A stretch of 64,000 bases of DNA from Chitinophagaceae bacterium (lineage in GTDB: Bacteria; Bacteroidota; Bacteroidia; Chitinophagales; Chitinophagaceae): NCBI GenBank assembly GCA_947447825.1, contig CANFLL010000006.1, positions 1-64,000 of the forward strand, written 5' to 3'. Of the stretch, positions 20,723 through 27,007 are shown one piece after another. Both the position numbers and the translations under genes were made by a program. The notes below the pieces were generated by a model. That model saw only the letters and a list, made by a program, of their open reading frames with translations. It had not been told where the DNA came from and did no database searches. Numbering within the stretch: the first letter of the stretch is position 1; every line of letters begins with the position of its first letter.

Positions 20723-20826
20723 AATTAAATTTTAGGTGTGCAATTTACGGTTTTCAGTTTTCATAATTGGCGGTTAGTAGGTTAATTGGCTTTTAGGATT
20801 GATTTAACCATTGTTTAATTCCCAAC

Positions 20827-20935
20827 TCGTCGTTGTTGTGTCTATTGACTACTTGATAAAATTTCACTTATCTGCTTTATGTTGTTGGTCAAAAGACACA
20901 ACAACGGCGAATGGGTGGGAAGAGCAGTAAAGGGA
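20827..20935. repeat. hairpin plus left copy of the direct repeat bordering the TAC cassette
   Basis: Arms 20831-20843 (cgttgttgtgtct) and 20894-20906 (agacacaacaacg) are perfect reverse complements, extended by a further imperfect 7 bases, with a loop of about 50 bases. The right arm continues as ggcgaatgggtgggaag. A related sequence, gtcaaaagacgcaac then ggcgaatgagcgggaag, lies at 22671-22703 in the same orientation on the far side of three genes. Confidence 0.7.
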
Positions 20936-20940
20936 AAATA

Positions 20941-21045
20941 ACAACAATCTTAGCGAAGCCACGCGTGAAAGACGGCGCGGTAGCAGCGAGTCCGTTTAAA
21001 ACGCTGATTTGACGTGCGCTAGCGGAGAATGAGAGAGAAGACCAA
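20941..21045. other. GC-rich non-coding patch
   Basis: About 100 bases (for example acgcgtgaaagacggcgcgg) are visibly richer in G+C than all the surrounding sequence. I found no tRNA cloverleaf, no open frame and no clear hairpin. It lies just inside the left border repeat of the three-gene cassette and may be a scar of foreign DNA. Confidence 0.45.
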
Positions 21046-21104
21046 TAAAGGAAGAAATATTTTTCGCATATTAATTCGAGAAGAATACAAAGTATTCCAA
21101 TATA

Positions 21105-21590
21105 TCACGAATCACTTGAATTAGTATTTTCCTTAGGTATAAGTTTATCAAGTAATTTCTTTGTTGATATGATAGGAAGAATCAATTTCTTTAATATTGT
21201 TCCTTGACATCTTGTATAAATAATTCCTCGGGAAGTAGAATATGAAATATTTGCAAGACTTGTAATTAAGTCAGAGTTAATCTCAATGGTATTTTCCAGA
21301 TTTACCAGCTTCTCTAAATTCTCTAACTCAAAAAAGTATGCTAATTCAAATCTTCCTTTAATATCAATAGGTTCATTTGTGAGGGTAAGTAGTTTTATAT
21401 TACAAGTAAAAATTACACGGATTTTTTTTTGATTCACACTAATTGCTGGCGAGAATCCATAGCTGATGTCAAAATAGTACTTTTCACTTTCTAAATGTGA
21501 AAGATCTGTGTTATTTTCAATAAGAGCATTTAATATAATTATCTCATCTATCTTTAAAAGCTCTATATCAAAGTTATCATTGTTACTCAT
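21105..21590 (-). CDS. SecB-like chaperone of a putative TAC (toxin-antitoxin-chaperone) module
   Basis: This is a 161-residue cytosolic protein with the SecB fold pattern: an N-terminal strand region, a long strand VIFTCNIKLLTL, then ELAYFFELENLEKL, and a helix-turn region with YSTSRGIIYTR followed by LPIIS. The latter corresponds to the SecB segment that ends in a conserved Pro. True SecB serves SecA export; SecB-like proteins in TAC operons instead fold and protect the antitoxin. It is the last gene of three, and its ATG overlaps the antitoxin stop by 4 bases (ATGA), so translation is coupled. Family assignment is by pattern only. Confidence 0.72.
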   Translation of the reverse strand: MSNNDNFDIELLKIDEIIILNALIENNTDLSHLESEKYYFDISYGFSPAISVNQKKIRVIFTCNIKLLTLTNEPIDIKGRFELAYFFELENLEKLVNLENTIEINSDLITSLANISYSTSRGIIYTRCQGTILKKLILPIISTKKLLDKLIPKENTNSSDS

Positions 21591-22024
21591 ACTAATTCTT
21601 TTTCTATATTGACCTGATGAGCTGGTTTTACATTGTTCTTCTTTATATCAGCATATTCTATTTTCTGTTCGCTAATATTGCCAGCTCCATCTATAATCAT
21701 TTTTGCATGGCAAGTATTATACGGTATTTTGACTTGCGTAAATGTTGACTCCTCAGTTTTTGTGCAAACTGCAATTATTGGCTCTCCAAAAGCTATTTGC
21801 AACTTAGTTAATGTCTTTATCGTAAAATTCTGAACTCCCGATAACCATTTTGATACCTCTGCCTCGCTTTTGTTTAGCTTTTCTGCTAATAATTTTTGTT
21901 TCCCTCCAAATTTCTCCTCTAATAATTCATGAATTCTTTCAAGTATATCCATTGAAAGGTTCACCTCCTCATTAATTTCTTCGGGGGTATTTTCAACTAT
22001 TTGATGGAAATTTTTTAGTTTCAT
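21587..22024 (-). CDS. HTH (XRE/HigA-like) antitoxin with C-terminal extension
   Basis: Residues 22-75 form a helix-turn-helix domain: GGKQKLLAEKLNKSEAEVSK then WLSGVQNFTIKTLTKLQIAFG. This is the XRE/HigA antitoxin type that binds toxin and operator DNA. About 65 further residues follow (KIPYNTCHAKMIIDG, ending KPAHQVNIEKELV). In SecB-dependent TAC antitoxins such a tail is the chaperone-addiction (ChAD) region that makes the antitoxin depend on its chaperone; assigning that role here is inference. Start and stop each overlap the neighbouring gene by 4 bases. The total length of 145 residues is longer than plain HigA. Confidence 0.8.
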   Translation of the reverse strand: MKLKNFHQIVENTPEEINEEVNLSMDILERIHELLEEKFGGKQKLLAEKLNKSEAEVSKWLSGVQNFTIKTLTKLQIAFGEPIIAVCTKTEESTFTQVKIPYNTCHAKMIIDGAGNISEQKIEYADIKKNNVKPAHQVNIEKELV

Positions 22025-22506
22025 ATCTCAATTTCATAATTAATTAAACAATCTATTGTCTGATAATTTATCTCTCTATCTAACAACCCTTTGTCAAGCC
22101 TTTTTGCAATTTTATTCGCATTACTAAAATGCTCTTTTACGTTTTTGCAGTTTATTGGATTTATGTCTGTTTTAATATCACCATTCAGCAACACAAGAAC
22201 ATTATCTGTTAATCTAATACAATATAATCGTAGCCCAAAGTCCTCCTTATTGGCGTCCATAATTGCTTGACTTACAATTGGCAATGCATGAGCCGCACTC
22301 TCAAATTTAAAAAAGTAAGATCTTGCCCCTCTTTTTCCAATCTCTTTAATTGTTTTATAAGCAATTTGCAATTCTTCAAGATGCTGTGGAAACTCTTTAT
22401 TATCAAATTTTTGAAACTCCGCCAAAGAACAATCTCCTAACTTGACTGAGTAGAATTCTACCTTACTAGTTGACAATTCGTCTATTTTTTCAAAAGTTAC
22501 TCTCAA
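22021..22506 (-). CDS. RelE/HigB-like toxin of the putative TAC module
   Basis: This is a 161-residue protein and the first gene of the cassette. The core RGARSYFFKFE, then LRLYCIRLTDNVLVLLNG and KTDINPINCKNVKEHFSNANKIAKRLD, follows the RelE/HigB order: an alpha-hairpin, a strand with a conserved Arg, a strand ending in a hydrophobic-Leu-Asn-Gly turn, and a C-terminal helix. Such toxins are ribosome-dependent or free mRNA endonucleases. The only start consistent with the frame is TTG, because a stop lies just upstream and there is no early ATG; this may keep toxin output low. Its stop overlaps the antitoxin ATG. Confidence 0.7.
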   Translation of the reverse strand: MRVTFEKIDELSTSKVEFYSVKLGDCSLAEFQKFDNKEFPQHLEELQIAYKTIKEIGKRGARSYFFKFESAAHALPIVSQAIMDANKEDFGLRLYCIRLTDNVLVLLNGDIKTDINPINCKNVKEHFSNANKIAKRLDKGLLDREINYQTIDCLINYEIEI

Positions 22507-22534
22507 CTTAATTTATAAGTTAAGAACAAATATA
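22505..22534 (-). promoter_or_regulatory. TAC promoter and operator-like palindrome
   Basis: On the minus strand TATATTTG (22527-22534) matches the Bacteroidota -7 box TAnnTTTG. It is followed by AACTTA-ATTTA-TAAGTT (22505-22521), a perfect 6-base inverted repeat that overlaps the toxin start codon. Transcription would begin about a dozen bases before the TTG. The palindrome is the natural candidate for HTH antitoxin autoregulation. No strong -33 TTTG is seen. Confidence 0.5.
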
Positions 22535-22661
22535 TAGACTTTCAGTTTAGATAATCTAAAAATATTTATTCGGTTAATTAATCTTTTAACAAAAGTAGGT
22601 AAAAACAACAATCAGCAGAATATTAGTTGCGCATTTTATTTAGTTGTCAAAGCCCAAAGTA

Positions 22662-22715
22662 TCGTCGTTAGTCAAAAGACGCAACCGGCGAATGAGCGGG
22701 AAGTTGAATAAAGAA
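22662..22715. repeat. right copy of the direct repeat bordering the TAC cassette
   Basis: The sequence cgtcgtt-a-gtcaaaagac then ggcgaatgagcgggaag repeats the left border (20827-20935), but lacks the 57-base loop found there. Both copies point the same way and enclose the toxin, antitoxin and chaperone genes. Confidence 0.65.
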
Positions 22716-22859
22716 AAAGTTTCTGTCATTTTCCCACACAATTCCTACATTGCATCTGGTTAAGGGGTACAGGCGTTGCTTTGGTGCAACAAGAATCTAA
22801 AAGTTTCATCACTCATACTTCTTACATGTTTTCAATTGCTAGTTATCGGGTTGCCACTA

Positions 22860-22890: not shown

Positions 22891-23006
22891 CGAAAAAACC
22901 TCTTTTAAAGCCTTCGATACAGGCATCTTCCACTTTAATCATCTTGTTTTATACGTTCCACCAACCAGATAGGGAGGCATATTTGGCATGTCTCCCCTCA
23001 TATAGT

Positions 23007-23184
23007 GTTAACCAAATACGGCATAAGGTTAACCAAATGCGGCAAAGTGTTAACCAAATGCGACGTAAGGTTAACCAAATGCGACAAAGTGTTAACCAAA
23101 TACGGCAAAGTGTTAACCAAATGCGAAATAAGGTTAACCAAATGCGGCAAAGTATTAACCAAATGCGACGTAAGGTTAACCTAA
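23007..23184. repeat. 21-bp tandem array, eight units plus a partial
   Basis: The unit is gttaaccaaatgcggcaaagt, repeated at an exact 21-base step with few changes. Unit ends alternate between AAGT and TAAG types. After a TAAG end the junction forms the 8-base palindrome GGTTAACC. One frame is open and reads a 7-residue repeat (VNQMRQS), but it lacks a credible start and I treat it as non-coding. The array ends about 50 bases before the next gene. Confidence 0.9.
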
Positions 23185-23233
23185 TTTTTAGACTTAGTAG
23201 TGAAAAATAATTGAATAATTTAAATTAAATGAT

Positions 23234-23869
23234 ATGAATCAAGTTATAATAGATTTTGCAGGATATACCGACGAATTAATAGCAACAGATGCGGCAGCAG
23301 TAGTTTTAGGTTGTAATGCTACTAATACCAACTTTAGTGTGGTTGCCCAGCATACCGCCGTAGTTTCCGCATTGGGTGTCTACAATCCTGCCTTGGCGGC
23401 ATGTGCACACGGCAATGAGGCAGACACAGATTTAAAAAACACGAAGAAAGGATTGTTGGTAATTGCCATGAGGGTATTGGGAGTACAAGTAAATGTACAA
23501 GCCAATCGCGATAGAATCAAGGCTTTGAGTAGTGGTTTCCCGATGGAAAAAGAAGGTAGCCACCAAGTAATGGGCGATGTGGCGAATTTTAAAGTAGCTG
23601 CAGGAAGTGTAGCAGGATACATGAATTTTAGTGCCGATAAACCAAAAACATATTCTACTCACGGAACCATTTTTGCCTATTGGGATGTGGCTTTGGGGCC
23701 TACGCCTGCCGATAAAAACAAATGGTTTCAACGGCATAGCAATGGGGTAAGCCTTACCATTGCTGGATTTACGCCGGGTGTGACTTATCCTTTTGCCGCC
23801 GCCTACAAGGGGCTTGATACAGATTTGCTGTTGTGGACGCCTACCATGAATAAAATGGCGGGTGATTAG
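23234..23869 (+). CDS. hypothetical protein, paralogue-like to the gene at 9744
   Basis: This 211-residue protein has no signal peptide. The N-terminal half is Ala-rich and helical (FSVVAQHTAVVSALG, then KGLLVIAMRVLGVQVNVQA). The C-terminal part has a fibronectin-like segment VSLTIAGFTPGVTYPFAA, comparable with FINLKPGVFYYIYYVLVYK in the 9744 gene. Its codons look richer in G+C than those of its neighbours. It lies between a 21-bp repeat array and a strong terminator, as a single-gene unit. Function is unknown. Confidence 0.72.
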   Translation: MNQVIIDFAGYTDELIATDAAAVVLGCNATNTNFSVVAQHTAVVSALGVYNPALAACAHGNEADTDLKNTKKGLLVIAMRVLGVQVNVQANRDRIKALSSGFPMEKEGSHQVMGDVANFKVAAGSVAGYMNFSADKPKTYSTHGTIFAYWDVALGPTPADKNKWFQRHSNGVSLTIAGFTPGVTYPFAAAYKGLDTDLLLWTPTMNKMAGD

Positions 23870-26062: not shown

Positions 26063-27007
26063 TTAAATTAATCCATTGGTTAACTCCTTTTCGTTGAGTC
26101 CTGTAAAATCCATTGTTTCTTTCAAGGACATTCCTTTGTTTTTTAATTTTTGTGCAATATTTAATTTACTTTTAAGAAGCTCTAGTCTACTTTCCTCTCT
26201 AACCTCTTCTCTACCTTCTACTCTACCTTCTACTCTTCCCTCTTCTCTTCCCTCTTCTCTTCCCTCTTCTCTACCTTCTCTTTTGGCTTCTTCTTTCGAG
26301 TATTCTAAAGCATTAAAATTGTCTCTAAAAACCTTCAGGCTTGATTCATAGCCATGCCTTTGTGCTTCGGTAAATTTTGCTAACTCGGCACTTTCAAAAG
26401 CTTGTATAAAAACAGTATCCTTAAAAATGGAAGGAATCACCTGAAAGTCTTCCAAATGTTTAATAAAGTATAACCATTGGTCTAGGCGAGAAGATAATTC
26501 TTCTTCAGTTTTTAAAAAATTGGGCATCTCCAAATAAATGTAGGTTAGTTTATCGTAAAAAACTTTCCCATACTGGTTCTTCAACTTAATGGTGTGCATC
26601 ACTTCATCTTTGGATTCTTCGTTTTTTGTGTCAAAAGTAAAGTCGAGGATTCCAATGCAATACACCGCACTAAGTTTATAGTTCCACTCCCCCTTTTCGG
26701 CTTGCTCCACAATCGGAAATGTGGAATAATAGATGGTGCGATCTTTAAAATAGTTCTGCTTCACTTTTTGCAGTTCTACAATAAACTTCTCGCCTATTTC
26801 ATTTTCACAGTATATGTCATAAACAGCTTTTCTATCTGCCACCGTAAAACCTAATTGCTCAGTACTTTTAAAACTAATACTTTCAATTTTACGTTCTTGT
26901 TTTAGAAGTGCATTTAAAAAATCAATTAGCAATGGTTTACTGGCTTCTTCAGCAAAGATTTTCTTAAACCCAAAGTCGGTGAACGGATTTACATATTTTG
27001 CTTTCAT
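26063..27007 (-). CDS. Rpn/PDDEXK-family nuclease (recombination-promoting nuclease/putative transposase)
   Basis: This 314-residue member of the PD-(D/E)XK Rpn family starts YVNPFTDFGFKKIFAEE, the family hallmark. The nuclease core follows: DIYCENEIGEKFIVELQ (the D, then ExQ), and FKDRTIYYSTF. E. coli RpnA-type proteins cleave DNA and promote RecA-independent recombination. Before the C-terminus lies an in-frame run of EGREEGREEGR-type repeats, followed by a short helical tail (LNIAQKLKNKGMSLKETM) typical of the family. No terminal inverted repeats surround it, so it is not an intact transposon. It is a single gene. Confidence 0.9.
   Translation of the reverse strand: MKAKYVNPFTDFGFKKIFAEEASKPLLIDFLNALLKQERKIESISFKSTEQLGFTVADRKAVYDIYCENEIGEKFIVELQKVKQNYFKDRTIYYSTFPIVEQAEKGEWNYKLSAVYCIGILDFTFDTKNEESKDEVMHTIKLKNQYGKVFYDKLTYIYLEMPNFLKTEEELSSRLDQWLYFIKHLEDFQVIPSIFKDTVFIQAFESAELAKFTEAQRHGYESSLKVFRDNFNALEYSKEEAKREGREEGREEGREEGRVEGRVEGREEVREESRLELLKSKLNIAQKLKNKGMSLKETMDFTGLNEKELTNGLI

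Follow-up and report, generated by a model that had tools for sequence, protein, structure and literature searches.

The toxin-antitoxin-chaperone (TAC) system of Mycobacterium tuberculosis, HigB1-HigA1-SecB-TA (Rv1955-Rv1956-Rv1957), encodes a RelE-fold toxin, a tailed helix-turn-helix (HTH) antitoxin and a SecB-fold chaperone, in that order. Initial descriptions were of a system responding to stress (PMC5105189, PMC4257090), and the concept of chaperone addiction has been set out for TAC systems (PMC5105189). HigBAC of Escherichia coli C496, going by its description, likewise consists of a HigB toxin, HigA and a SecB-like HigC, and is triggered by the lambda major tail protein, which disrupts the HigA-HigC contact (PMC11980606). 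CmdTAC of E. coli ECOR22 is an abortive defence system with a capsid protein as its trigger (PMC11618068); its antitoxin is an HTH protein and its chaperone SecB-like, while its toxin, CmdT, is an mRNA ADP-ribosyltransferase. According to a survey, SecB outside the alpha-, beta- and gamma-proteobacteria is mostly linked to toxin-antitoxin genes (PMC4257090). TAC systems are known from these other bacteria and are little described in the Bacteroidota.

We describe a cassette from a Chitinophagaceae genome that has the gene order and the three component types of the M. tuberculosis system. It differs from that system in its toxin, which at about 160 rather than about 120 residues lies beyond single-sequence detection, and in its chaperone, which is about 16% identical and falls outside the Pfam SecB family (PF02556). 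We consider it very probable that this is a HigB-type TAC cassette with the cycle of chaperone addiction, autoregulation and phage-triggered abortion proposed below, for which we infer toxicity, target, chaperone dependence, repression, trigger and phage protection.

The cassette

The window, meaning the whole 64-kb stretch of DNA analysed, belongs to a 4.6-Mb draft genome. Three minus-strand genes spanning 21105-22506 follow one another in the order toxin, antitoxin, chaperone:

22021..22506, minus strand: gene for the 161-aa toxin, with a TTG start; RelE superfamily, HigB/Gp49-like and divergent; PADLOC PDC-M64A/B, 1.9e-31
21587..22024, minus strand: antitoxin gene, 145 aa, Cro/C1-type HTH and 65-residue tail; Pfam HTH_3, 1.1e-7; PDC-M64C, 4.7e-26
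21590..21784, minus strand: C-terminal tail of the antitoxin, proposed chaperone-addiction (ChAD-like) region; a tail of such length goes with the chaperone gene and is lost with it
21105..21590, minus strand: chaperone gene, 161 aa, SecB fold by predicted structure, Foldseek and structural alignment; PDC-M64C, 1.3e-22
22021..22024, minus strand: exact ATGA overlap of toxin and antitoxin genes; -4 overlap in 17 of 93 relatives
21587..21590, minus strand: exact ATGA overlap of antitoxin and chaperone genes; -4 overlap in 22 of 77 relatives, any overlap in 52 of 77

The original prediction, made from the letters of the window, had three leftward genes joined by two exact ATGA overlaps, and both junctions lie where it placed them. 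The TTG start that it gave the toxin is the codon at 22504-22506, and the 65-residue tail that it gave an XRE antitoxin is recovered when residues are counted after the HTH glycine, G80. The same gene order is repeated in dozens of loci, which is beyond chance.

Family assignment and distribution

Among the three proteins the antitoxin HTH gave the only informative Pfam match, and NCBIfam gave none above its cut-offs. The toxin and the chaperone had no direct sequence match in Pfam, NCBIfam or PDB, and PDB searches with single sequences and with profiles returned nothing usable for either. The chaperone did not match Pfam SecB even at E-values up to 5; the toxin did not match Pfam Gp49/HigB (PF05973), the two families being linked by profile-profile comparison only. 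All three proteins matched the PADLOC models of PDC-M64, an undescribed candidate defence system, with all components present. None of the papers searched names PDC-M64. We identify it as a HigB-type TAC, an assignment drawn in the present analysis that gives the undescribed system a concrete identity.

The toxin sequence by itself picked up no relatives in a scan of genome contigs, whereas a small alignment used as query gave 16 named loci; the viral contigs, phages and plasmids searched yielded none. The comparative set holds 93 distinct related loci, 77 with a chaperone gene and 16 without. The PDC-M64 chaperone family is present in 77 of 395 genomes sampled across the Bacteroidota, about a fifth. 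Canonical SecB is rare in this phylum: 3 of 148 genomes had a Pfam SecB, and the cassette's own genome had none. This rarity agrees with the survey cited above (PMC4257090).

Three chaperone-family genes (L022, L024 and L027) have no recognisable antitoxin or toxin gene upstream and are possibly solitary SecB-like genes or broken cassettes. At another locus (L129, 885-1887) a Pfam SecB gene stands beside the gene for an unassigned 189-aa protein, and the toxin and antitoxin described here have no relative there; this may be another type of TAC.

Chaperone

The structure models of the chaperone and the toxin were built from few sequences. That of the chaperone (12 sequences, pLDDT 85.7, pTM 0.79) consists of four long strands followed by one long and one short helix. 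The original prediction had called this protein SecB-like by pattern; the top solved structure found by Foldseek for the model is Rv1957 SecB-TA itself (5mtw, E 5e-8), in which this M. tuberculosis TAC chaperone was crystallised together with its antitoxin's tail peptide; SecB of Haemophilus influenzae and E. coli come next. Structural alignment gave Z 11.1 to Rv1957 and 11.9 to SecB over 130-139 aligned residues (rmsd 2.8-3.3). At two other Bacteroidota loci (L128 and L130) relatives of the toxin and antitoxin are accompanied, in the third slot, by a Pfam SecB protein above the cut-off. On the predicted structure, then, the third gene product is a SecB-fold chaperone.

Toxin

For the toxin model (14 sequences, pLDDT 89.4) the Foldseek matches were weak, with a best E of 0.07, and ranks one to seven were all HigB toxin-antitoxin structures. 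The M. tuberculosis TAC structure 7awk is one of the toxin's top three structural matches. VIA-align matched the model to HigB of Streptococcus pneumoniae (Z 9.2, 112 residues, rmsd 4.0) and to M. tuberculosis HigB1 (Z 8.2); nearly all entries below these were RelE-superfamily toxins. A profile of the 93 toxin relatives compared with 28 Bacteroidota Gp49/HigB proteins gave an hhalign probability of 93 and a score of 47.6, against 18.0 for the best of 30 column shuffles and at most 14.6 for the chaperone and antitoxin families; profile E-values are those of single comparisons. Structural alignment and profile comparison alike uphold the RelE/HigB-like call that had been made by pattern. In the predicted structures examined, both 161-residue proteins are what the original prediction had staked itself on, RelE-like and SecB-like.

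Four toxin residues are invariant: F66, R93, G109 and K112. The profile alignment pairs R93 with the arginine in the ARVF stretch of HigB, and K112 with the first of the two lysines in its GFIKK motif. Judging from the residue correspondences in PMC9098466, R93 would be the counterpart of R77 in HigB-TAC and R61 in RelE, and K112 that of K95 and R81, respectively; K95 of M. tuberculosis HigB-TAC is required for toxicity (PMC9098466). Within the RelE superfamily the toxin belongs to HigB/Gp49, as a divergent member that retains the catalytic arginine and lysine; it is probably a ribosome-dependent mRNA endonuclease.

The HTH antitoxin and SecB-like chaperone found also in CmdTAC (PMC11618068) might speak for a system of that type, with an ADP-ribosyltransferase toxin. 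Since the toxin model is RelE-like, the profile comparison ties the family to Gp49/HigB and neither Pfam nor NCBIfam matches the toxin to a transferase family, this reading is almost certainly wrong.

Other small proteins fill the toxin slot at loci that have the same chaperone and antitoxin families and not the present toxin. At one of them (L009) the relatives of chaperone and antitoxin are paired with a Pfam HigB_toxin protein (1.9e-19).

Antitoxin tail and chaperone gene

Where a chaperone gene follows, the antitoxin tail is 41-94 residues long (n=77). Without one it is 9-37 residues in 14 of 16 loci and 52 and 48 in L116 and L122. The medians are 60 residues with and 20.5 without the chaperone (rank test p 9e-10, kinship ignored). 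On the best toxin tree the chaperone switches between present and absent a minimum of 13 times, with five switches on well-supported branches. In the five independent well-supported pairs the tail change is never in the opposite direction, although with five pairs p cannot be below 0.06.

The closest comparison is that of L033 and L034, from the same genus, which have 86% DNA identity on both sides of a stretch of about 590 bp that is absent from L033. This single deletion begins just past the HTH and stops close to where the chaperone gene ends; the antitoxin is left with a short new terminus. Ka/Ks in the remaining parts is 0.08 for the toxin and 0.04 for the HTH, indicating purifying selection. 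Joint loss of tail and chaperone is what chaperone addiction (PMC5105189) predicts, because a tail without its chaperone would be harmful. Comparison of the related loci thus bears out the coupling of tail and chaperone, which along with gene order and tight gene spacing had been read as the TAC design, and the tail appears, from these sequences, to depend on the SecB-like chaperone.

The same evidence bears on a different account of the third gene, as a SecB-like chaperone serving mainly protein export or general folding that lies behind a toxin-antitoxin pair by chance. We hold this to be very unlikely: the tail comes and goes with the chaperone gene, the genes overlap in most loci, and a distribution as patchy as 77 of 395 genomes is unlike that of a housekeeping gene, even though the cassette's own genome is without Pfam SecB and some TAC chaperones can substitute for E. 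coli SecB (PMC5105189).

Antitoxins with a chaperone unusually often end in alanine or another small residue (AA, AI, AS, VA), resembling ClpXP-type degrons; across the 93 loci alanine is the final residue of 30% of such antitoxins, compared with 0% of toxins and 5% of chaperones. This stays a hint, because the ATGA overlap constrains the last codon. One locus (L057, 1571-2452), which lacks a chaperone gene, encodes downstream of a truncated toxin a 293-aa antitoxin-like HTH protein whose C-terminal part is weakly like the HEPN-like AbiA domain.

Palindrome, promoter and toxin start

Two elements lie directly upstream of the toxin gene:

22507..22524, minus strand: 18-bp palindrome CTTAACTTATAAATTAAG, putative operator, abutting the TTG start; kept in the family and unique in the genome
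22527..22534, minus strand: promoter -7 box TATATTTG, 20 nt upstream of the start codon; TAnnTTTG pattern in close relatives

A palindrome had been predicted to overlap the toxin start. The 18-bp form abuts the TTG, and a longer form with one mismatch reaches into it; the palindrome CTTAACTTATAARTTAAG occupies the stretch from the -7 box to the TTG start. When up to one mismatch is allowed, its core, AACTTATAAGTT, is present upstream of 35 of the 93 toxin genes, as against 3 of 1860 shuffles, and in 0 of 93 sequences upstream of the antitoxin gene, and the 18-mer has a single occurrence in the 4.6-Mb genome.

A sigma-70 promoter scan gave chance level only, and the Bacteroidota -7/-33 pattern was informative instead. 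Of 16 close relatives, 13 have TAnnTTTG, the Bacteroidota -7 consensus, 19-20 nt upstream of the start, versus 2% in shuffles. These 13 of the 16 loci in the cassette's clade have TAnnTTTG, one or two bases, the palindrome and TTG in succession, often with a -33 TTTG at 19-20 bases. A larger group of loci uses GTG as start, and there the palindrome includes the start codon. Under the longest-ORF rule, 73 of the 93 toxin genes have a GTG or TTG start codon; antitoxin genes begin with ATG in 87 of 93. The palindrome is likely an autoregulatory operator lying over the transcription start; the transcript would be nearly leaderless and the toxin start weak.

The TTG start, together with broken toxins among the related loci (L045, L072), could be taken as a sign of a decayed cassette whose toxin is inactive. 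The chance of this seems very small, given three intact frames, the presence of the invariant residues, a TTG start that is kept in the clade and Ka/Ks well below 1 in close relatives.

Proposed mechanism

We propose that the HTH antitoxin neutralises the HigB/Gp49-like toxin, and that its tail would make it unstable unless the SecB-like chaperone is bound there. Alone or with the toxin, the antitoxin would repress the operon at the palindrome, which covers the transcription start and abuts the TTG start codon, an arrangement that may also hold toxin translation low. The trigger would be whatever draws the chaperone off the tail; the likeliest candidate is a structural protein of a phage, as with HigBAC and CmdTAC in E. 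coli. The antitoxin would then be degraded, and the freed toxin would halt translation and so abort infection.

More tentatively, with somewhat less than even confidence, we suggest that the SecB-fold family is chiefly a defence sensor in a phylum mostly without housekeeping SecB; that tail and chaperone form a removable unit, gained and lost together, that has turned TAC into plain toxin-antitoxin and back many times; and that operator, promoter and non-ATG toxin start form one fixed block. Near-identical cassettes with and without tail and chaperone are natural experiments on chaperone addiction, and the claim that the two make one module is directly testable with such minimal pairs.

Mobility and genomic neighbourhood

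In the window the cassette is surrounded by housekeeping genes. The segment that varies between related genomes, and the repeats bracketing the cassette, are:

20808..22719, no strand: variable segment with the TAC only inside; HNH and Fic genes instead in a sister genome (G867), absent in one of the same genus (G860)
20881..20937, plus strand: left copy of a direct repeat of about 57 bp, within an inverted repeat with 28-nt arms (20822-20915)
22664..22718, plus strand: right copy, its end adjoining the synteny breakpoint at 22720

The housekeeping genes on either side of the segment are PSP1 and a gene of the aldehyde-dehydrogenase family (probably encoding P5C dehydrogenase); in G860 these two are direct neighbours and the cassette is missing. 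The matching site in G867 (L181, 3234-5365) holds an HNH gene, a Fic gene (PADLOC PDC-S04, 1.8e-64) and one further, unassigned gene. Identity to G867 is unequal on the two sides, about 82% and 95%, which suggests recombination at the site. By these genome comparisons the cassette is movable. The site between PSP1 and the aldehyde-dehydrogenase gene may be a small exchange hotspot. The repeat family has partial copies on at least four further contigs in this genome. The flanking repeats were considered as integron attC sites; this was dropped, as their ends, judged by eye, misfit the attC consensus.

Related cassettes have as neighbours, among others, genes for type I methyltransferase and specificity (L047), type I restriction (L049) and CBASS cyclase and HORMA (L054), and one lies downstream of phage tail-fibre and endolysin genes (L042). 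These flanks were chosen by eye, and no enrichment is claimed.

A cassette that is mobile, bracketed by direct repeats and set among housekeeping genes could also be a TAC-type addiction or stress module with no real anti-phage role, stabilising its own mobile segment or slowing growth under protein-folding stress, and the M. tuberculosis TAC was first described as responding to stress (PMC5105189, PMC4257090). We think this possible and rather unlikely. Against it stand the match to PDC-M64, a PADLOC candidate defence system, the Fic and HNH genes at the same site in the sister genome, and the several relatives beside restriction-modification (RM), CBASS or prophage genes. The swap with Fic and HNH genes and, in the hand-picked flanks, the RM and CBASS neighbours are traits of a defence locus, and the cassette is probably directed against phages.

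Two further elements lie nearby in the window. A 21-bp tandem array of 8.7 copies (23004-23185, unit AGTGTTAACCAAATGCGACAA) separates the cassette from a 211-aa gene at 23234, and a PD-(D/E)XK nuclease family transposase gene (PF12784) occupies 26063-27007, 3.5 kb from the cassette.
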